The translations under genes were made by a program, and so were the position numbers. Below, in pieces: positions 5,281-59,364 of a stretch of DNA of 64,000 nt. The notes beneath the pieces are model-generated. The model saw nothing but the letters and a program-made list of their open reading frames with translations. It was not told the DNA's origin and searched no databases. This stretch comes from Powellomyces hirtus (lineage: Eukaryota; Chytridiomycota; Chytridiomycetes; Spizellomycetales; Powellomycetaceae), in NCBI GenBank assembly GCA_025526995.1, contig JAHLKG010000015.1, forward strand, positions 434,001 to 498,000. The letters are read 5' to 3'. Numbering within the stretch: position 1 is the stretch's first letter; every line of letters starts with the position of its first letter.

Positions 5281-8200
5281 TTACGCCGCACTGACTTTGG
5301 ATAGTCGTTCCCGCAGTACACTCAAGAATTGGTGGTAAGAGTAGCTCGCGTCGATCCTGTCCTCAATCAGCTGTGACAAAAACTGCATTCGGAAACTGGG
5401 CTCCCCGTCTTCCTTCACAACATACAAATGGGGGTACGTTGTCATCATCTGTAGCCGTACTTCCCGGACCTTTCCGATTATGTTGTTGACTCTGACACTG
5501 AAATCGTTCTGAAGTGTTGGCAAGGTGGTCTGGAGAGAAAATGCGGGTGATGAGATATTCGGAAACCTTTCATTGTCTGTACTGTGCACATGCGTATTCA
5601 AGGGCGTACCTTTCCAACTTGAATGGCATCGTAGGACGGCTTGTCAAACAGGTTGTGAATCAACTCTGGGGCAACGCCTCGGCTGACCCACATGTACATC
5701 TCGAGGCCATTCTCGAGGAGGTAGAGTCCATGTCGCTCGAGCTTTTCGCTGCTCAGGTTCATCGATGTGGGATATACAATTTTTCCATCTGCGCCCGGAA
5801 GACCAGCCTAACATATATCGATTAGCACAAACAACAGAAAAAAAAATTGGCAAATGCTGTTGCTCATACCTGTGGTTCCAGAGTGTGCAATGCCCAGAAT
5901 CGCGGATGAATCTGAGCGATGGACAGCTCGGGTGGGAGTACGTACAGCATTGCCATCAGGAATGCGCGAAGATCACTAGGAACAGTACTTGTGGCACGGA
6001 AGGCGGCCTAGAAAGATAAAGATTGTGTTGGGTGCTGTGATCTGTTGATAGATTTCAAGCTAGTTTTACATACATTCTTCAAGAGACCAAGCACAAAGAG
6101 AGGCAGCAGCTTCAGGTTGTCAGGCACCAGGAGTTGCACTGCCTGACCTGATGAGGTGAAGGCCGATTTGTAGGCGCCAAGAATGTCGTCAAGTTTGTAC
6201 ATCAGAGCATCGCGAGCATCTTCGATTTTCGATGAAAGGGCGCGTTCAATAGCTGATGATGGTTTGAAGATCGACGTTAGCTTTGGAAACTTCCGAGGTT
6301 GCCTTCACCCATCACGAACCTTTCTTCGACAGCAACGACGCAAGGGCGAACTGGTCGGTTGCGGAAAATACGTCAGCAAGGTTGTTGGTCACGGGAACAG
6401 CCAGAGTGATGACACGGATGCGTCGTTCCCCTAATGCACGAGAAGAATGATAAGCACCTCACCCTCACCAAAAAGAAAATGGTTCGACCCCCGCTTTACC
6501 TGTACTGCTGGTGTGTAGCAGAGCCGTCTGGAAGCACGCGAGCGAGGTCGTCAGATTCTCCGTCAAGGCCATTTCAACCGCATAGGAGTTGTCCGGGCTG
6601 ACATTTGGCAGTGATAGGAGGTCGGTGGACCGCAAGAAAAAGTTGCCGTGGAACGATGTCATGCGGATTCCTTTGGACGCACGGACACGCATGACAGCCT
6701 CTAATCCGATGGGTCGCGAGAGGAAATGTGAGAACTCATGGGCGAATTTCATCGCATCCTCGGACCGTCCGGCATTGAAGCCGGGGTAATAGTATACGGA
6801 TCCTCCCGTAAACTTTGCGCAACCACCTAGATTGTGTAATAGTAAGCACGTGACAAATCGCACCGACTGTCAAGTGCACTTACTCAGCGTTGCCACGTCC
6901 GCGTATTGGGAGCTGAAGAGGAACACATCCATGCTGACTTGTGTGGGAGAGCATGACACAGCCATATTCTTGTAGAAACCAGATTGTGGTTGCAGAAGGG
7001 AAATCTCCTGAGTTGGGGAAAAGGCGGGATACGTCAGACACGCTGCATGTCAGGCTGATCAGACTTGCAGGGAACCTTACCTTGGGCGTTCCCAGGAGCT
7101 TTGGATCGTCTCTCGGCTTCAGAGCACCCTCACTTTGATTTGGCAAACTAGATTGAAGAATGATGATCTTTCCTCCAATTGCGCTCTAGTAGGAGGAAGA
7201 GTGTCGTTAGGTCAAATGAAGTTGACTATGACCAAATCAAGCATCTCACGTACAATCATCTTGTGTGCTGCTTGTACAGCTCGTCCCAACACATTGCCAA
7301 CGTTCTGAGTGTTCTTGAACATGTCAGCAAGGCGTTGCAGGAGAGCCTCAATCAAAGACCGTGACTCAGTCAAGGAGACCAGCAGATCGTATGGCATCGG
7401 CAAGAACGTGTCGTCAAGGTCGGATACCACCAGCATTTGAGGTTCTGATACGTTGGGCTACATGGTGATGCAAGGTAAATAAGTCCTTGCTCCTTGATGA
7501 CCACGTTTGATCCAAAATTGCGCACACTCAGATTGTAGAAGTGCAGAGCACTATCAACGGTTATGAATCCAACTTTGGTCCGGTTGTCAGTGTTAGGTAT
7601 GGTGTCGAGGGTATCCAAGATGGTCCTCGCAGCGGTTGCAAGCATTCCGGATTGTACGGCTGAATGCGAAACGTCGATAATGAAGAGGAACACCACCGGT
7701 TGTGGTGGGCGAACCTACGAGTGACCAGATTTAGGAATGGTGATAGCATAGACTCCACATCCAAAGCACTTACCATGTATTCCTGAGGTGCCACAAACTC
7801 AACAACGGCGTGCGTCAATTCTGGTCGCGTCATGCGATCCACATGTGCTCTTGTATCCGGATCCCAATCAAAGAATGTAGGCACTAGTGACGTAGATAAG
7901 ATCAACACCGATATTTATACGCACTTCCAGCGAATTGGAAAGCCGCTTTACCTTCATTTGTGAGGAAGCACAAGTTACACTTCCATCGCGATCCTTGCTC
8001 GACAAACTGGACCCATGGGTTGATATACGTGCGGCAACGCCGGCAACGCACAATTTGCGGTGGATTGATCAAAGGAACTGGATCCTAATGTGCGGGTCAG
8101 TACTTTGACAAAGGCATGTGGTGAATCATTTCCATGTGTTACCTCTCCAGCAAGAATGTGTCGATACGGGGTAACCAGAAGACCGAAGGGAATGCTGCAT

Positions 8201-9649
8201 TTGTTCATAAGAGTCATTGTTTGCGGAATGGCGTTCATGGTGCATCGTTTATATTTGGGATCGGCATTTGACTCGGGATGTTGCGATACAGACGACTAAG
8301 AATGGCGATGTGAGATGCGACGGGCAAAACATGATTGGCACAGGAAGTGAGCCAATCTTACCTGCGAAGATATCCATGCAGGTACTGGCGCATCAAGCTC
8401 CGCGACATTCGGTGCAAACTGCAATAAATTAACCGCTTGCGGGCCAGATGGAATCTAACAGTGTTCGCGATCAGCGTCTTGTGCGCCACGGGGCCGTCAT
8501 ACATGCACCCTACCTGATTGCCCATGTTCATCTGCCCAAAACTGCTGGCCATTTGATTCATATCCGGTTGTCCGAACTGACCACCAGGACCCGCTTGTTG
8601 CGGTTGAGCTCCCCATTGTGGGCCCTGTGGTGCCACCCCTGCTTGTGGCTGTTGTGCTCCAAAAGCGCCTCCAGGTGGAACGCCACGTCCGGGTATTCCT
8701 GGCGTGAAGAACTGCGGTGCGCCAGGCTGTCCGCCAGGCGGTCCAGGTGATGTCACACCAGTCTGCGGAGTCACTGGTCGATCTCCATATGGAGAGCCAG
8801 CAGAGAACGGGTCTACCTGTGTGGTATTGACATACGGGTCTGCTGTCGGGTATGCTCTTCTGTTTCCTCGGGAGCCTGGGGGAGCGCCACTGACTGGTGG
8901 TGGCGGTGTTCCTGAAACGGGCGGGATATAATTCGGTGGCAGTCTTGCGTGTGCCGCCATCATGGGAGAGCTAGGACCAGCCGAGCCATGGAGTGGAGGT
9001 TGTTGGAGACCAGGTACTCCAGGCCTTGGCATAGGTGCCGCCATCGGGCCGGGAGGAAATTGTCCAGCGGCACTCGGAGGACGTTGCTCCGGCATTCCGC
9101 CAAACTGTGGCGCGGCAGCTGGGGGTCGGAAGTTTCCAGGCCTAGGTTGCGGTGGACCAAAGTTTCCTCCCTGATTCGGGCCGCCTCCGCCTTGAGGAGG
9201 CATGAAATTTCCGGGCTGACCAGGGGCGAAATTTTGACCTGGTGGAGCGGCAAAGCCTCCGCCCTGGGCCGCACCAGGACTCTGTGGCACACTTCCCATC
9301 TGTCCGCCCGGGTGAGGGCGAAAGCCCTGTGGGGTGCCTACACGATTCACAGGCATATTCGGGCTGTTCATGGCTAGAATAAATTTGGGGTTAACAGACT
9401 CCACCGGGTACAACCGCACAAAACCTCCAACTATCGCAAGTAGTGAAAGATACCATTGGGTCGTCCACCGCCTTGCATCCCAAGCGGCATCTGGGGCCCT
9501 CCCGGCCCTGGAGGTCCAGGCCGAATACCGGGGCTGGGAGAACCGGGGGGCATCATCGGACGCCCTGGTTGCTGCAGCGGGGCCGGTGCGTTCAGATGGG
9601 GAGGCCGTTGCTGCATCCCAAAGTTTGGAGGAGGTTGTTGAGCCTGCAT
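5281..9649 (-). CDS. SEC24: COPII coat cargo adaptor SEC24, A/B class
   Basis: Cargo-binding subunit of the inner COPII coat at ER exit sites. Many short exons. The Pro/Gln/Gly-rich N-terminal region is in exons 9649-9454 and 9373-8514, followed by 8418-8362, 8295-8143 and 8084-7952. The order is as in SEC24: [15 protein letters not shown], then the zinc finger [11 protein letters not shown]...KCNLC (two CxxC pairs), the trunk ([52 protein letters not shown]), the beta-sandwich ([14 protein letters not shown]), the helical domain, and the gelsolin repeat ([17 protein letters not shown]). It ends at a TAA at 5281. The finger and the FLPMP trunk resemble SEC24A/B, unlike the second SEC24 at 55-59 kb. 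The start is uncertain: the ATG at 9649 opens the Pro/Gln-rich frame, but an in-frame ATG at 9761 in another frame leaves room for an upstream exon. Confidence 0.92.
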
Positions 9650-10274
9650 CCCGAGAGCGGTCTGACTGTCTGCCAAATCGCAAGAATGTCAACGACGGTA
9701 GTGTTTTGCGGAGAATGTCAAGCCTGTTCCCATCACGCGATATCTCCTCATTCGAAACCATCTCATCATCCGCGGTGCCTTGTGATTGTGGCGCTCACCT
9801 AGATGCGATAGCAGGTGGCTTTCCCAAAGAAAACGAAGCAGCGCTCGTGTACGTCCTCTGTGCTCTTCAGACTTTGATATAACAAAGCAGCTGGCCTCCG
9901 TTGAATGAGGGGTTGACAGCGGTATCAGCTAAAGCTATAACGTATCGATACTACCCGGAGAGTTTCCCGTATCGGAAAGACAGCCTCAGATGAGGGCCGA
10001 CACGAATGCAGTACCGGGCGCCTGGGTCTTTGAGAAGCGGCTTGCCTCATCGCATTGCTAGCATCTACCGCTTACTCGGGCGATTGACAATAGAAAGGGC
10101 TGGAAAGGCGCGTAGTGGGTGTCACGTGTCAGCGAACGGAGTTGAGAGAACCTCTTTGGTGAAGCTGCAAGCGTAATGGGTTGGAGAGACTGGACAACGC
10201 AAAACTATTTCCCAACAGCCGGTTTGGTGTCTGTAGCAGATGAATTGTGTATATATATGTACATGGTTCTCTTT
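9650..10274. other. Intergenic region upstream of SEC24 (A/B class)
   Basis: About 0.6 kb between the SEC24 start and the 3' end of the GT25 fusion gene, both on the minus strand. It should carry the SEC24 promoter and possibly a non-coding or short coding first exon near 9761-9660. I see no other gene or repeat. Confidence 0.4.
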
Positions 10275-12758
10275 TCAGCGCCGCGGAGGCATGGAAGAGA
10301 AAATGGTATCGTTTCTCCACGGACTTTGCACTTCGCTGCGCGCTCGCCAGTTCCTTGCCCAGGCGCGATCGGCTTCCGTGACACGGACCGGCTCCACAAC
10401 CCCTACTTCCGAGACTCCTCGGATTCCCTTCGACAAGCTCCTGCCCAGCCGCTTGAAGGGGAGCCACCATCCCTGGACCGCAAGATCGCTCGGTGTCTCT
10501 TCATCCTGATCGATGAGAGGCGGATGCATGCTGTACGCTTTCAAGATCCCAAGATTCTGTGAAAAGCATCATAGGAAGAAAGGTAACAATGTGAGATGTC
10601 ATGTCAAAGAAAAGTGAGGATCTGGACATCCTACTTACCACGAGTTCCACTATCGCATCATCACAGGCAACGTGTGGCTCGTCAAAGTACTTGAGCATCT
10701 TCTTGGCAGCTTTTTGGCTGACTGCGAACGCATGCGTGCAACTCGGGTGGGTGGCTACTGCGAGGGTATACTCTGTGCCAAAAGGGGAAGCTGTATTCGG
10801 AGTAAACGTGGCCATCCGCTCTCCGGGAGGGTTATCGCACCAGCCTAATGGTCGAAAGAAGATTAACCTCACGCGACACGATGGACGGGCCGAAAGCAAA
10901 CGAATCTTACCAAGATACAAGAGATCGGCATCGTTCGGTATCACTGAAAAGAACGGATTCCAGATCGTGGCAATTCGCTTGTCAAATATCACATCGTCCT
11001 CCAAGATCAAACTCCAGGCAAAATTCCGGTACACTATATCCTTGAAGATCCGCAACTCGCTGACTGTCAAAGCTACCTCCCCGCGGCTCAAGTGAGTGCC
11101 AAATGGGAACCAGCCCCAAAGCGGCTTTGAGTGTAGAAGATCCAGTCGATCAATCACGGCTGGCACCTGGTACGTGGACGCGGGTGTAATGTACACATCC
11201 ATATCAAGCTTGTGAAGTCTGGAAGCCATGATTTCTCGGCGATCAGCCCGTCTCGCCAGATTCACCATGTAGATTCGATCAAACCCGAGTGTGGTGTTGC
11301 CTTCTACGTGCAGCAATTCCTCCTGTGCAAACGGCATAATTGGACTTCGCGAAGATCGTCGAGGAACCTCGCTCTTGGTTACCATTGACACAAGTGATAT
11401 CACCAAAATGGCTATGCACAGGATGATTAAGCGAACAATCATGGTCTGCCGTCGAGTTTTCCACTGGGATGGCGACCGAGCCTTTCCGAGAGAGGAAATG
11501 TACGGATATGCTCTGTCGGGGTATCGCCAGTGCAGCAGAGCAGCTGATATTATCATTCCAAGCCCCGCGATCTTCATTGGCGTGACGTCCTGCGGCTTCG
11601 CAATCCATGAGATTGCGCATACTATCAACAACTGCAAGCAACACAATTGAGTTTGCGAACGAGATCGGATCAGCGTACAGGACGCACTTACTCGCGCGAT
11701 TTGAGTCTCCACAGCAAAGTGCGACGATCTAGCACTAGTAGGCACCAGCATCGCTACCACTCCGCTCGTTCCGCTGACGATGACCATTGCAATGACATGT
11801 TTGGTCCAAAAACGGGGTAACATCACATTCGTGCTTTGCAAAGCTTCCAGTACCATCCAAAGTACGCTCAAGAGAATGATTGACCACGGCTAATGGGTCG
11901 ATGAGCATTTATTTGTGAAAGAGTGAAATGATTGCCGAGAATCGCACTTACAGCAATTGAACGTATATCAGCCGTGCGCCCGCACGAGAGGCCGGTGAAA
12001 GGCACTAGCACGGCAAAGTTGATGATCAGGATCAACATGCCAAAGTAGGTCATTCGATTTGAGAGGGCTTCAGTTGACATCCATGCCACCCCGCCAATTA
12101 GGAAGATGTAGGCAAGTATGACTGGGAGATAATGGCTCATCGGATTTCGCCGCAGGTACAGGATTATGAAAGGAAGCCCTATCAGAGTGACTTGCTGAAA
12201 CGTTTCGAGTGGCAGCATCATCAAAGACCTGAAAGCAGTCTGCATCAGCAAAGATTGCTGCATGGGAAGTCTGGCGAATCAAGCTGATAAAAGCGGCGCA
12301 CCAGTAGGATATGATGGTAGTAAGGGTGGCGAGCACGACAAGTCGAATGAGCCCCCTCGTCGAGAGAGACTTGTGTGGAATCGGTGCGCAAAACACCAGA
12401 GCTGTGATGTAGAGGAATATCTGCGGGACACAAGGGTTCAGAAGTAAACTTCCGCACAATCGACTTGACGGATCATTACCTGGTGCAGTAGGGCCAAGAA
12501 GACGGCGACACTCAGCCTGTTGTGGGGCGAGGGACTATGGACACTAGAGAACATGGCTTTGGTAGAAAACAGCATCGCCGTAGTGGCTCCCACACTCCCG
12601 ACAAGTTGCAAAACGACATTTTTCCACGAGTCTGCTTTTCGCAATCCAACGACAAACTCGTTCTCGTCGTCGCTGAGGTCCGCCGCGGTCGCGACGCGGT
12701 CATATGCAGTCGAGCCTTCGTGGGTTGTGGGGAGCGTTGAGAGTTGCATTTGCACCAT
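10275..12758 (-). CDS. DMT/TPT-type transporter domain fused to GT25 glycosyltransferase
   Basis: Seven exons (12758-12480, 12420-12302, 12228-11952, 11889-11692, 11631-10911, 10844-10639, 10556-10275) sum to 2082 nt (693 aa) in one frame. Residues about 30-330 form roughly ten hydrophobic segments in the pattern of drug/metabolite or triose-phosphate-type nucleotide-sugar transporters, ending with IAGLGMIISAALLHWRY. Residues about 353-375 form one further membrane helix. Residues 408 to about 600 are GT25: FDRIYMVNLARRADRR, LILEDDVIF (Glu502-Asp-Asp) and LLYLGWCDNPPG, then KAYSMHPPLIDQDEE in the last exon. GT25 enzymes transfer galactose or other hexoses to protein or lipid acceptors. Exon 5 alone contains both the end of the transporter region and the start of GT25, so the fusion is seen directly. 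A Golgi site is inferred. Start is the first ATG; an upstream TTG in frame was ignored. Confidence 0.85.
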
Positions 12759-13293: not shown

Positions 13294-15130
13294 ATGCAAC
13301 AACCGAAGCGGCCCCATGCCGAATGGGAGAAGAGCTGTGCCCCGGTTCGCAGCCCCTCCACGGTCATTGTATTCGGAGACTCGACGTACTGTGATCCCGC
13401 AACCCAGTTTGTGACTACTGTTCAAGCAGATTACCGTGGCCAACAAGGCGAGCGCAGGCAACGATGCGGACCAGTAGCGACACCAGCCGGGAAGCCTTTG
13501 GGAATAGACACTGCAGATAAGAAAGCGGTTCACATTGCATTCGGTGATCAGGGTCGACCAGATGAGGACAGATGGAACACGGTATCCGAGCAGAGCTTTG
13601 TATATCGTGGAGATCAACTGGGTAACGAAAGAAGAATGTTGGAGCACAGATGCATGCTGATCCATTGGGGGCGGACGCAAACTCGACGCTAATCTCCCTT
13701 TGATAGGCGAGGCCAACAATGGACGATTAGAGGATCACGCTAACCTAACGCCGGCGCAAAAGTACCATTTCAAGCCGGCCACTGCTGCCATGTCCGCTCA
13801 CATCGGACTTCAAACACGCAACGACTTTCCCATTGATGACTCCCGATTCAAAAGCTATTTGACAACTCATCAGGACGCCTACAAAATCAAACCTTTGCCC
13901 GAAGTCCTGTCGACTGCGAAGGGTCAAGCTGCTGGATTCGGGGCAAGCAATCGGACTAGTAACATCCCGCTCGGCGATCCTGCCAAGCCACGCGAATGGG
14001 GAACAATGGCAAAGAGCTCGTGGGTGGATCACGGCATCGCCGCGTACAAAAAGCTGACGGTGGACCCATCTGTGCACCGCACTTCCGATCTCGTTGTCAT
14101 GGATCGTGGTTTGCGCTCAAAAGAGGACACGTTTCAATCGACAACAGCGCAATCGTTCAGGGGCGCTCAGGGAGCAGCTGAGACGGGGCCGAAGCAATCA
14201 GTGAAAGCGGGCAAAGTCCGCGGGTACAGCTCGATTGCCTTTGGAGAAAGTTGCCCACAAACGTCAGCAGCTTCGGTATCGCGACAAGACTATGGACATG
14301 ATCCAGACGCCTGCCGAGAATCTCGGCAAGCTGTCCGGTCTTCAGTTCAAGATCGCTTATTGTCCAAGCCAGGAATCCAGGCCGCCATTTGTCCAACGAG
14401 TGGAACCCACATGGAATCCTCGATGGAAGCCGCATATCGACCACCACGCGCTCCCTCCACCGCGGCAGCAGCAGGTATCTGCAAGTCACATCCGTCATCC
14501 ACCGCTTCGTCTTTCCCGCAAGGTGATCCAACCTTTTTTGACATGAAGTCATCCGTTCCCACCACCCTGGATTCATATCAACCGTATAACAGCTTCCGAA
14601 TGGAGCCACATCCCGTTTTGGGAGCCAACATTACTCGATCGACCTTCACATTTGCTCAGCCTGATGCTCCTCTGACGGACTATAAATCCTCCAGTCACTC
14701 TGCATTCGTTCCACATGACATTTCTGCCGAGCACGGTCATAGACATCCACCCCGGAAGCGTCCTGCTCTGCCACCCATTGGTGACACCACCACAACCATG
14801 TCCGCAAACAAAACCACGCATCAGTCGCACTACAGTACTCCAGATATTTCAGACAACCATGACCCACACGGCCGCTACGCTCAGCCTCATCCGTCAGCTG
14901 CTATCAAACCACTGCTTTTCCCTACCCGCACAGCCCATATCACGCCCGCACAGACATATAGCACGACCATGGGTGACTTTTACGGTCAACGCGATGCAAT
15001 TTGGCGTACTGAAGATCGAAAGCTTGCCCAAGGAAGGCTGGGGAGTTCCGTGGTCTTTGGGGACCCCCGAATGCGGTATTATGGGGATGTCGTGGTTAAG
15101 AAAAACATCCAGCCTGTTCAGGCATGTTGA
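13294..15130 (+). CDS. Probable axonemal microtubule-associated repeat protein (TEX45/SAXO-like)
   Basis: Two exons (13294-13621, 13707-15130) total 1752 nt and encode 583 aa. There are no membrane helices or enzyme motifs. The protein is made of degenerate units of about 40-60 residues: a small-residue/FGD or LGD core followed about ten residues later by a T/S-rich aromatic stretch. Examples are VIVFGDSTYCDPATQFVTT, HIAFGDQGRPDEDRWNTVS, NIPLGDPAKPREWGTMAKSS, SIAFGESCPQTSAASVS and SSVVFGDPRMRYYGD. Units of this kind are typical of flagellar microtubule inner or associated proteins (TEX45, SAXO4). I infer a structural role in the zoospore axoneme. The splice (donor GTAACG, phase 1) gives a continuous frame. 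Divergent from the GT25 fusion gene. A specific orthologue is not certain. Confidence 0.6.
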
Positions 15131-55162: not shown

Positions 55163-58100
55163 ATGGCCACTCCTCCGACAGCATTCAACCAGGGTCCTCC
55201 CGGTCAAATTCCGAGGCCGCGACCGCCGTTGCAGCAACAGCAGAGTGCTCCAAACCTCAGCCAAAGACGTTTCCCCGGACCCCAGGGCGTGCTGCCAAAC
55301 TCGCCAGCAATGTTCCGTCCCCAAAGGCCAGCGCCAGGTCCAGGCGGATTTGCCGCTGCCCCTACCCCGGGACAGGGCTCTGCGCCCAACGGAGTGCCTG
55401 GGAATCCAGCTATGGCGTTTAACGCGAGGAGTCAATCACAAGGTGGGGACCGATGATCAGCGATCAGGGTAATCGCACGGAATCGCATGCCTCCGCGTCA
55501 CTGTCTACGGGAGTTTCTTAAATGTCTCTGACACCCGTTGCCCCCCCCCCCCCCTCATTCAGACTCTTTTCGACCAATGGGTGCTGGACAACCCATCGGA
55601 CAGCCAGGAGCGAGGCCACAGCTACATCAGCAAGGTTGGTGATGAGGCTTGAAGGCAGAGGTTCCTGCTCGGAGATTGACCCGCAATATTCTTGACAGAC
55701 TCCTTCCGGCAAAACGCAAGCCCACAACCATTTGGGCAGCAGCCCAGGCCCGCCATGCAGCAGCAAGGTATGGGCCATGTGTCGGTACCAAGATAGTCCC
55801 ATGTGTTCTGATTTGCTTTCATGTCCCTCAGGCTCTTTCACCCAGCCTGGACAACCGCTTGCACCTCGTCCTGGACTTCAGCCTTCGCCGTCGCCCGGTT
55901 TCGCTGCGCGACCTGGGCCTGATCGTCAAACGTCTGCGCCCAATGGGTTCCCAGCTCCACTTCAGTCCGCCCAGTCACAGCCTTCCCTTGGAAGCGGTAT
56001 GCCTCTAGGTGGTCCACCTGCGCAACAGCCGGTGCCCGCCAATCTCTCGACCAGCAGTTTAACCAATGACATGGGCAACATGCAGATCGGACCTGGAGCT
56101 GGAGCTCGGAGTGCTCGGAGTAGGCGTCAGTATGCAAAGTCGCCCGCGACTTCCACCGGTGACCTCTATTCCCCTGCCGGCGGCACGCTAGGTCCGACGC
56201 CAGCAGCTGGAGCACAACCGTACGGACAGCAACCTGGAGGAGTTCCAATGGGTCGACCTGGGATGCCTGTCGGGCTTGGTCAACCGGCGCCAATGTACGG
56301 ACAGCCTCCGGCCCCAGCATTTCCCATCCCTGGAGCGGGGCAGCCTCCCGTGTTCTTACAGCAGCAGCAGTCCTTTTCTGGAATGCAACCGTCAGGCGCT
56401 CAACCTGGCATGCAACCAGGGATGGGATTCCAACCAGGAATGCAGCAGCCCGGAATGCAACCCGCTATGCAACCCGCTATGCAGCCTGGAATGCAGCCTG
56501 GAATGCAGCCAAGTATGCAGCCAGGAATGCAACCTGGCTTCCAGCCGCCAATGCAGCAAGGGCCTCAACCGGGATTTCAACAACCACAGCCCGGATTCCA
56601 GCCAGCAATGGGACACGGGCCAGGGCCTGCTGGACCGGCAGCACCAGCGCGTTCACGAATTGATCCCAATCAGGTTCCCAGTCCCATCACGGTACAGGAA
56701 GCCGATCAGGCTCTATATGAGGATGCGCCGTTCTCGACAATGTCCAAATCTGTTCCTCCGTTGCCATCCACAACATTCAAGGCGATAGATGACGGCAATT
56801 GCAACCCTCGCTTTATCCGCTTGACGACGTACAACATACCGTGCACCGAGGAATTGAGCAACACTACGTCCATACCGTTAGGGTTGATTGTGCAGCCGCT
56901 CGCAGAATTGGCGCCAGATGAGGAGCCGATCGAACTGGTCGATTTCGGTGAGAAAGGTCCTGTCCGTTGCACACGTTGCAAGGCGTACGTGAATCCCTAC
57001 TTTCTGTGGACCGATGGAGGTCGGAAATTTGTTTGCAATCTTTGCTCGATCGAGAATGAGGTGCCTCCAGAGTACTTTATGAATCTTGACATGAGTGGAC
57101 GGCGCATGGACCTGATGAGGAGGCCGGAACTGCGCAAGGGAACTATTGACTTTGCGGCTCCCAAGGGATACTGCCAACGGGATCCGAAGCCGGCATCTTA
57201 TGTGATAGCAATCGACGTGACGTGGAATTCGATTCAGAGTGGACTTTTAAAGCAAGTGGTCGAGGGTATACGAGAGCTCTTGTACACGGGACCAAAATCT
57301 ATACCAGCGGGGACAAAGATTGGTTTCATTACCTTTGACAAGGCGGTACACTTCTACAACCTCAGCCCGGGTTTGGATCAGCCTCAAATGCTGATTGTCT
57401 CGGATATTGGCGATATGTTTGTCCCGCTGAATGCCGGGTTCCTGGTTGACCCGCATGAGTCCCGTGCGGTGATTGAGAACCTTTTGGACACACTGACAAC
57501 CATTTTCGAGGGGAACCGCACCCACGAGCCAGCTCTCGGAGCCGCTGTGCAGGCTGCTCACGCAGCACTCAAAGGAACGGGCGGCAAAATCAGTGTCTTC
57601 CATACGATGCTCCCCACGTTCGGCCCCGGCCTGCTCAAGAACCGCGAAGATGCCAAGCTGTTTGGAACAGAGAAGGAGCGCACACTCTACGAGCCGCAGG
57701 AGTACTTCTGGCCAAAGCTGGGGCAGGATTGTGCCGCCGATGGCGTTTCCATCGATATGTTCTTGTTCCCGACCTCTTACATCGATGTCGCCACTATCGG
57801 AAGCCTTTCGGCCCTCACCGGTGGAGAACTCTATGTCTACCCCAACTTTGACGCTGGTCGGGATGGACTGAGAGTTGCAAAGGATCTGATTACCTCGTTG
57901 ACGAGAACGTTTGGTTTCGATGCGTTGCTGAGAGTTCGTGTCTCTAACGGTCTCAAAGTCACCGATCACTTTGGCAACTTTTACATGAAGAATGTGACAG
58001 ATGTGGAGATGGGCGGAATCGATTCGACCAAAGCCATCGGTGTTGGCATCAAGCACGACGGAAAACTGGACGAAAAGCGTGAATCCGCGTTCCAGGCGGC

Positions 58101-59364
58101 TCTCCTTTACACCACTGCCACGGGCGAACGAAGAATCCGCGTCCACAACATCAGCGTCTCCAACACGTCGCTGCTCGGAAACGTCTTCCGATATGCCGAC
58201 ATGGATACAACAGCGTGCTATCTGTGCAAAGCTGGTAAGGCCGGAAGTCACCAGATACGCTTGTATTTAGCGATGACACTCATTTTGTTTCTGGGATGAT
58301 AGCTGTCGCGCAAACTGTGAACTCGACACTGAAGCAGGTCAGGGAACGTCTCGCCGAAAAGTGTGTTAAAGTCCTGGCAGCGTACCGCAAACACGCAGCA
58401 TCGTCGTCTTCTCCGGGGCAGCTGATTCTCCCGGAATCATACAAACTGTTTGCGCTTTATACCCTTTGCATACTGAAACTGAAAGCTTTCCGAGGAGGTA
58501 TGACGTCCCTGAGAAAATGAGTCATGTTCCTTCTGCTGACTCGTTATTTGACGGCATTCCAGGTCCAGACATGCCAACTGATATCCGGGTTTACAACATG
58601 CGCATGCTGAAAGCCCTCGGTGTCACCGAAAGTGTGCCGTTCCTGTACCCACGGATGATGCAGTTGCATGATCTCGTGTCACCGTATGGTGAGATTGATC
58701 AAAAAGGACTCGTGAAGCTGCCACCCTCTATTAGAGTCTCGGCGGAGCGCTTGAATCCCGCTGGTGCTTATGTGCTCGGTACGTATCGGACTTCCATCTT
58801 CAGAACGTTCTGCACAAGAAAAATGTCCTTATCAGTCTATGATTAATCATCTAGAAAATGGCCAACAAATGATAATATGGCTGGGACGCGGCATTCCGGG
58901 TACCTTCCTCGAGGAGGTGTTTGGCGTTGACAGTCTGGAAGCCGTGGATTCCAAATTGGTTAGGCCCCCATGCAGATACTTTTTTTGCCACCTCGTTGGG
59001 TGTTTGACATATACTGACTTCATCGATTCCATGTGCAGAAGGTGCTACCGGCTTTGGAAAACCCAACGTCCAACCGCGTTCGCATGATCCTATCCAGGAT
59101 CCAGCAAGAGCGACCCCGCTACCTGTACCTCCAAATTGTGCGCCAGCAGATGGACCAGTTTGGCGACATTGAGTTCCATAACCTGTTGGTCGAGGATCAG
59201 AATTCGGATAACCTCGGTTATGTGGATTATTTGATCAATGTTCACAGGTAAGACGAGGGGAATTGGTATTTTGTTTTTCCCAAGAGACCCCTTCTCAATT
59301 CTCAACTATTTTTTTTCTTTTTTTCTTTTGTAGACAAATTCAAATGGAATTGTCTTCATCATAA
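55163..59364 (+). CDS. SEC24: COPII coat cargo adaptor SEC24, C/D class
   Basis: Second SEC24 in the window. Exons begin 55163-55442, 55563-55634, 55699-55767 and 55832 onward. After a very Gln/Pro/Met/Gly-rich N-terminus (tandem GMQPGMQP units) come VQEADQALYEDAPFSTM, the zinc finger CTRCKAYVNPYF...CNLC, and the trunk (YVIAIDVTWNSIQSGLLKQV, FYNLSPGLDQPQMLIVSDI, DMFVPLNAGFLVDPHESRAV). Then follow SIDMFLFPTSYIDVATIGSL, LLRVRVSNGLKVTDHFGNFY, the helical domain (SPGQLILPESYKLFALY) and the gelsolin repeat (LENGQQMIIWLGRGIPG), ending QIQMELSSS. FVPL plus CxRCKAY place it with SEC24C/D. Exons 2 and 3 are symmetric phase-1 units of 72 and 69 nt with related sequence. A C14 tract lies in intron 1. 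Confidence 0.93.
55541..55554 (+). repeat. C14 homopolymer in SEC24 (C/D class) intron 1
   Basis: Fourteen C in a row just before the 3' splice site, extending the polypyrimidine tract with C instead of T. Confidence 0.9.

Follow-up and report, generated by a model that had tools for sequence, protein, structure and literature searches.

A single gene of the chytrid Powellomyces hirtus encodes a ten-helix membrane domain and a GT25 glycosyltransferase in one polypeptide. Since three database proteins from two other genera align with it through both halves and the link between them, the fusion is a conserved co-linear architecture, shared with two further genera that belong to a single chytrid family. 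The preferred reading, to which a probability of about one half is assigned, is that of a bifunctional membrane protein in which a divergent DMT domain would import nucleotide sugar and feed it to the attached, lumenal GT25 enzyme. The gene lies in a stretch of 64,000 nucleotides, which was analysed as a whole and is referred to below as the window.

Whether nucleotide-sugar transporters pass what they carry straight on to particular glycosyltransferases is, to our knowledge, still an unsettled question. The evidence bearing on such a hand-over in the relevant passages of PMC6453868 is protein–protein contact in Golgi membranes. A natural fusion with fixed stoichiometry would offer a clean test, in which uptake and transfer could be measured in one protein and the two halves disabled separately. 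It would also show how one added helix can connect a transporter with a cytosolic C-terminus to a lumenal enzyme.

Gene Model and Genomic Context

The initial annotation had proposed seven exons on the minus strand (12758-10275), summing to 2082 nt. When these exons were rebuilt, they indeed gave a single open frame of that length, encoding 693 amino acids and a stop codon, with GT..AG borders at all six introns. The exons and the regions of the protein are located as follows.

10275..12758, minus strand: whole gene, coding sequence with six introns, 693-aa fusion protein (spliced frame without internal stop; full-length homologues)
12480..12758, minus strand: exon 1, aa 1-93, N-terminal tail, TM1 and start of TM2
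12302..12420, minus strand: exon 2, remainder of TM2 and most of TM3
11952..12228, minus strand: exon 3, end of TM3 and TM4-TM6
11692..11889, minus strand: exon 4, TM7-TM8
10911..11631, minus strand: exon 5, TM9-TM10, linker, TM11 and first part of GT25
10639..10844, minus strand: exon 6, later part of GT25
10275..10556, minus strand: exon 7, end of the GT25 region, C-terminal tail and stop
11524..12617, minus strand: ten-helix domain, probably DMT/nucleotide-sugar-transporter-like, aa 48-327, interrupted by introns (hydropathy, models, hhalign, Foldseek)
11446..11523, minus strand: basic linker, aa 328-353, predicted cytosolic (six K/R in each of the four proteins)
11386..11445, minus strand: TM11, aa 354-373, type-II-like anchor (hydrophobic in all four proteins, sequence poorly conserved)
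10654..11277, minus strand: GT25 domain, PF01755 match at aa 410-595, interrupted by intron 5 (Pfam E 1e-16)
10993..11001, minus strand: EDD motif, aa 502-504 (invariant in the four proteins)

Intron 2 (73 nt) has a weak donor, GTGCGC; the exon 2/exon 3 junction that it leaves is free of gaps against all three homologues, designated P0001, P0004 and P0005. Against P0001, the closest of them, all six exon junctions are free of pairwise gaps for about 10 residues to either side, and gaps against P0004 and/or P0005 occur near two of the six. It had further been claimed that the membrane part and the GT25 domain share one frame and one exon (11631-10911), and a stop between the halves had been named as evidence that would speak against a fusion. 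Exon 5 contains TM9-TM10, the linker and the LEDDVIF motif, and no stop codon was found in it between the membrane domain and the GT25 domain.

Two Sec23/Sec24-type genes, which belong to the COPII coat, occur in the same 64 kb, one at 6008-7711 on the minus strand, probably reaching to 9794, and one at 55696-58296 on the plus strand. The former is located downstream of the fusion gene and was recognized by exon-by-exon domain matches, one exon being below the cut-off; a Pro/Gly/Gln-rich frame at 8361-9794, which has no Pfam match, was assigned to it by eye. The divergent upstream neighbour of the fusion gene is an open frame of 489 aa at 13661-15127 on the plus strand, likewise with no Pfam match.

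Conservation of the Fusion

A database search with the full protein, in which 7991 candidates were scored, gave three proteins at E <=1e-3, namely P0001 and two GT25 proteins of other make-up. P0001 is a protein of 697 aa from Thoreauomyces humboldtii, with 55% identity over 93%. A second search used the GT part of P0001 as the query, with the whole-protein length limits kept; among 1563 candidates scored, four proteins were found at E <=1e-3. Besides P0001 itself, these were P0004, a second Thoreauomyces humboldtii protein (699 aa), P0005 from Geranomyces variabilis (670 aa), and P0006 (584 aa), in which GT25 is combined with a different domain, PF13704. P0004 and P0005 had been missed by the full-protein search; therefore, blanks in that search do not equal absence elsewhere.

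The alignment of the P. hirtus protein with P0001, P0004 and P0005 starts at the first helix and continues through the link into the C-terminal tail. The claim that one chain carries both domains is thus borne out both by the single frame and by full-length fusions in two other genera. A gene-model artefact was considered and ruled out, the whole architecture being common to three database proteins. Among the six pairs that the four proteins form, pairwise identity is 30-48% in the ten-helix domain, 59-71% in GT25, 17-46% in the linker and 12-35% in TM11. The pair of the P. hirtus protein and P0001 has the highest identity in both the DMT core and GT25.

The entries of P0001, P0004 and P0005 are named hypothetical proteins and carry the GT25 label only, so the transporter half of these relatives appears to be unlabelled in databases so far. 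These labels agree with the initial suggestion that no standard family is known to have this architecture. So does a literature search over titles and the beginnings of abstracts, which found no report of a natural transporter–glycosyltransferase fusion and which is not proof of absence.

The P. hirtus genome (29.26 Mb in 60 contigs) was also searched with the GT25 family, and this one place was the only match (one candidate scored). In Thoreauomyces humboldtii the fusion occurs in at least two versions, P0001 and P0004, compared with the single GT25 place in P. hirtus. Another protein, P0002 (932 aa, source jgi), has, as judged by eye, approximately four consecutive GT25-like units, preceded by a short hydrophobic N-terminus. 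A pattern scan with two peptides of the GT part gave 19 pattern matches in bacterial and archaeal contigs and 51 in viral contigs, with no confirmed relative in either set.

The Glycosyltransferase Half

The C-terminal half clearly belongs to the GT25 glycosyltransferases, and catalytic activity is predicted for it from its sequence. Its match to PF01755 reaches 61.9 bits, against a curated cut-off of 24, and covers model positions 3-198 of 199. The GT25 domain with a LEDDVIF motif, as originally described, is confirmed by this match, the motif being located at aa 501-507. Within it, E502, D503 and D504 align with the EDD of COLGALT1, and further downstream D593 and D594 are invariant in the four fusion proteins. 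The acidic EDD motif and a later acidic residue have functional roles in GT25 enzymes.

The best relative of this half among PDB sequences is COLGALT1 (E 3e-9 to 5e-9), and mimivirus R655 also matches (E 0.0036 and 0.0011). A Foldseek search with the low-confidence P0001 model agrees with this assignment of the GT part; among the best 50 of 455 matches, COLGALT1 stands first (E 3e-9), and beta-1,4-galactosyltransferase entries follow at E 8e-7 to 6e-5. According to PDB entry titles, a solved relative of the family is bound to UDP-galactose.

The Membrane Domain

The description of the N-terminal part as a ten-helix DMT/nucleotide-sugar-transporter domain was upheld in part. Ten stretches were recovered by hydropathy, and a modest profile match and one low-confidence model point to the DMT family; Pfam and PDB sequences gave no match for the N-domain. 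Taken together, it is quite probable that this domain has the DMT fold.

Hydropathy analysis gave 15 peaks, which merged by overlap into ten stretches and an eleventh at aa 354-372. AlphaFold models of P0001 and P0005 contain ten long helices, then one more, and then the GT domain, at very low confidence (mean pLDDT of the two models 37.0 and 38.9, too low for them to be relied on as structures). The P0001 model has one extra helix (26-41) in the N-terminal tail.

In sequence searches, none of the four proteins matched the Pfam families TPT, UAA, Nuc_sug_transp or EamA, with E up to 1 for the P. hirtus protein and up to 10 for the homologues. The only Pfam line for the N-domain of P0001, at a threshold of E 10, was SpoIIE_N with E 2.8. 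A search of PDB sequences with the N-domain profile gave no match up to E 10. The same was true of the N-domain alone against a set of 5.8 billion proteins, among 7996 candidates scored, the length limits having kept the fusion proteins themselves out of the candidates. In the P. hirtus genome itself, the N-domain gave five matches, all inside the fusion gene.

Profile–profile comparison was carried out with hhalign, using as the query a four-sequence profile of the N-domain (P. hirtus, P0001, P0004 and P0005). The DMT template profile had 12 rows, consisting of seven frames from the P. hirtus genome, some of which may contain a read-through intron, and five stretches of four PDB chains; the own-genome frames C15 and C19 and the first C1 piece were left out. 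Against this template the N-domain scored 30.3 (P 0.0025), in a co-linear alignment of 240 columns that extends from TM2 to TM10. The control profiles scored 12.9 (MFS), 14.7 (reversed MFS), 16.4 (amino-acid transporters), 23.6 (reversed amino-acid transporters) and 14.3 (reversed DMT). With an earlier DMT profile of 7 rows, 218 columns had been aligned at a score of 32.1 (P 0.0014). Lower scores, on 33-56 columns, came from the sub-family profiles (TPT 23.8, UAA 22.4, Nuc_sug 17.1). Seven single own-genome transporters reached 11.5-22.7, versus 12.8-17.6 for six controls, and single members of the fusion family did not discriminate between DMT and controls.

The robustness of this match varied with the sequences included. 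In 12 of 16 leave-one-out runs the score was 28.5-38.2, and in the other four it was 22.7-26.4 on 68-80 columns. Without the P. hirtus protein it fell to 23.3 on 68 columns, a level that the best control also reached, and without P0005 to 26.4; on the template side, it was 23.9 without C30tpt and 22.7 without C23nst. Among 300 block-shuffled controls, three exceeded 30.3, all of them from the amino-acid-transporter set, with scores >130 on 10, 19 and 72 columns, and these were taken for numerical artefacts of gap-rich blocks. The best of the remaining 297 reached 24.8, and the alignments of all 300 were shorter than 150 columns. Finer shuffling of the DMT profile, repeated 60 times, gave at most 17.4.

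The fold comparison with Foldseek rests on the same low-confidence models. Among the best 50 of 256 matches of the P0005 model, none was better than E 0.27, and the top row by E-value was an unrelated complex. Ranked by probability, these 50 comprised 12 matches above 0.2, all of them nucleotide-sugar transporters or SLC35B1, and 38 at or below 0.18. The highest probabilities belonged to 5oge (0.87), which we take to be Vrg4, and 9gry (0.75). The alignment fed to AlphaFold contained no DMT sequence. For the P0001 model, no DMT transporter appeared among the best 50 of 455 matches, which were led by matches to the GT part.

Linker, TM11 and Topology

The orientation of the membrane domain was assessed by counting K and R residues in loops whose limits were set from hydropathy, on the assumption of a cytosolic N-terminus. 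In the four proteins the counts are 12, 11, 11 and 9 in cytosolic loops, versus 5, 2, 3 and 2 in lumenal loops. When the linker is left out, the positive-inside margin is small (6, 5, 5 and 3 versus 5, 2, 3 and 2). It is supported but not proved by these counts that both ends of the ten-helix domain are cytosolic and that TM11, a helix absent from the initial annotation, would place the enzyme in the lumen. The hydrophobic but unconserved sequence of TM11 fits an anchor role.

Proposed Mechanism and Alternative Explanations

In the proposed mechanism, the ten helices would return the chain to the cytosol, where the basic linker would come next. TM11, acting in the manner of a type II anchor, would then carry the GT25 domain across into the ER or Golgi lumen. 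The membrane domain would import nucleotide sugar into the lumen and export nucleotide, and the tethered enzyme would transfer the sugar, next to the transporter exit, to an acceptor that may be a protein or a lipid. UDP-galactose is the best guess for the cargo, as galactosyltransferases are the closest relatives of the enzyme with solved structures. Transport, substrate, location and functional coupling are inferred. A fuller version of this reading, in which the self-supplied GT25 goes with a remodelled DMT binding site and an added TM11, and in which the natural fusion predates the divergence of these chytrid genera, is put forward tentatively, at slightly less than even odds.

The residues of the membrane domain bear directly on whether it transports anything. 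TPT-type transporters have a basic K-R pair that contacts phosphate. This pair is present in TM9 of the own-genome TPT transporter C5 and of chain 5y78. In the fusion it is reduced to one arginine in three of the four proteins and replaced by methionine in P0004; the register of the arginine differs between alignments, as it pairs with R (the K being lost) in three out of four and with K in the fourth. The reduced pair speaks against an ordinary TPT-type site. Polar residues in the helices or at their ends, including H92, Q93, Q144, N203, E240, Q243, H325 and others, do not vary among the four proteins and fit a putative binding cavity rather than a bare anchor. The P. hirtus genome also contains ordinary nucleotide-sugar transporters of the TPT, UAA and Nuc_sug_transp types; consequently, the fusion is not the sole possible supply of nucleotide sugar.

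The main rival of the self-fed enzyme is a transport-dead, DMT-derived scaffold that anchors, sorts or oligomerises GT25, which would be fed by these ordinary transporters. The existence of such transporters agrees with this explanation, as do the loss of one or both basic residues in TM9 and the faster divergence of the membrane domain relative to GT25 seen in the identities above. However, a plain anchor would have no need of the invariant polar residues, and TM11 by itself would suffice for anchoring. A scaffold is considered rather unlikely, though it is the best of the alternatives.

A different cargo is less probable still. Many kinds of cargo are carried by DMT proteins, and the domain might move, for example, a lipid-linked sugar, an acceptor or a nucleotide, with GT25 acting on that cargo or being regulated by it. 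The departure of the TM9 residues from the TPT pattern is in keeping with this, as is the presence of SLC35B1, solved with AMP-PNP/ADP according to entry titles, among the best 50 of 256 matches of the P0005 model. Against it, the match of best probability among the same 50, for what is a weak model, is a nucleotide-sugar transporter, and the family of the attached enzyme includes the relative bound to UDP-galactose noted above.

That two adjacent genes were wrongly merged, or that a GT25 transcript starts internally at M355, is very improbable. TM11 does resemble a type II anchor, and methionines occur directly ahead of it in the P. hirtus protein, 14 residues into the linker in P0004, and inside TM11 in both P0004 and P0005. 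However, exon 5 contains no stop, three homologues are full-length fusions, none of them has methionine at the M355 position, and P0001 has none from linker to stem. A separate GT25 start at M355 was accordingly set aside.

Comparison with Known Systems

The fusion can be compared with several known systems. COLGALT1, also called GLT25D1 (procollagen galactosyltransferase 1), is a soluble lumenal protein with two GT domains and a C-terminal ER-retention signal. It shares with the fusion a GT25-type domain, the EDD motif and the stretch GFDxx[YF]MxNLxRRxDRRExM; the part that aligns with the fusion protein is confined to a stretch in the second half of COLGALT1. In contrast to COLGALT1, the fusion has one GT25 stretch, 11 hydrophobic stretches and the C-terminus MPPRR.

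On the membrane side, Vrg4, SLC35B1 and the CMP-sialic acid transporter resemble the fusion in having ten helices and in the weak co-linear profile match from TM2 to TM10; they also account for all the matches above probability 0.2 among the best 50 of 256 for the low-confidence P0005 model. Unlike them, the fusion has no Pfam score, its TM9 pair is reduced, and an extra helix and an enzyme follow at the C-terminus. Mimivirus R655 (9crz) and beta-1,4-galactosyltransferase (8xgx) match the fold of the GT part of the P0001 model, but this likeness is confined to the glycosyltransferase part of the fusion.

With regard to transporters and enzymes acting together, the passages on fusion in the review PMC9368800 concern engineered constructs, cell fusion or references rather than a natural fusion. 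A counterpart is found in the animal Golgi, where, according to the relevant passages of PMC6453868, SLC35 transporters and MGATs form transporter/glycosyltransferase assemblies. These assemblies likewise place a transporter beside an enzyme; however, they are complexes of separate proteins, whereas in the chytrid fusion both parts are contained in one polypeptide.
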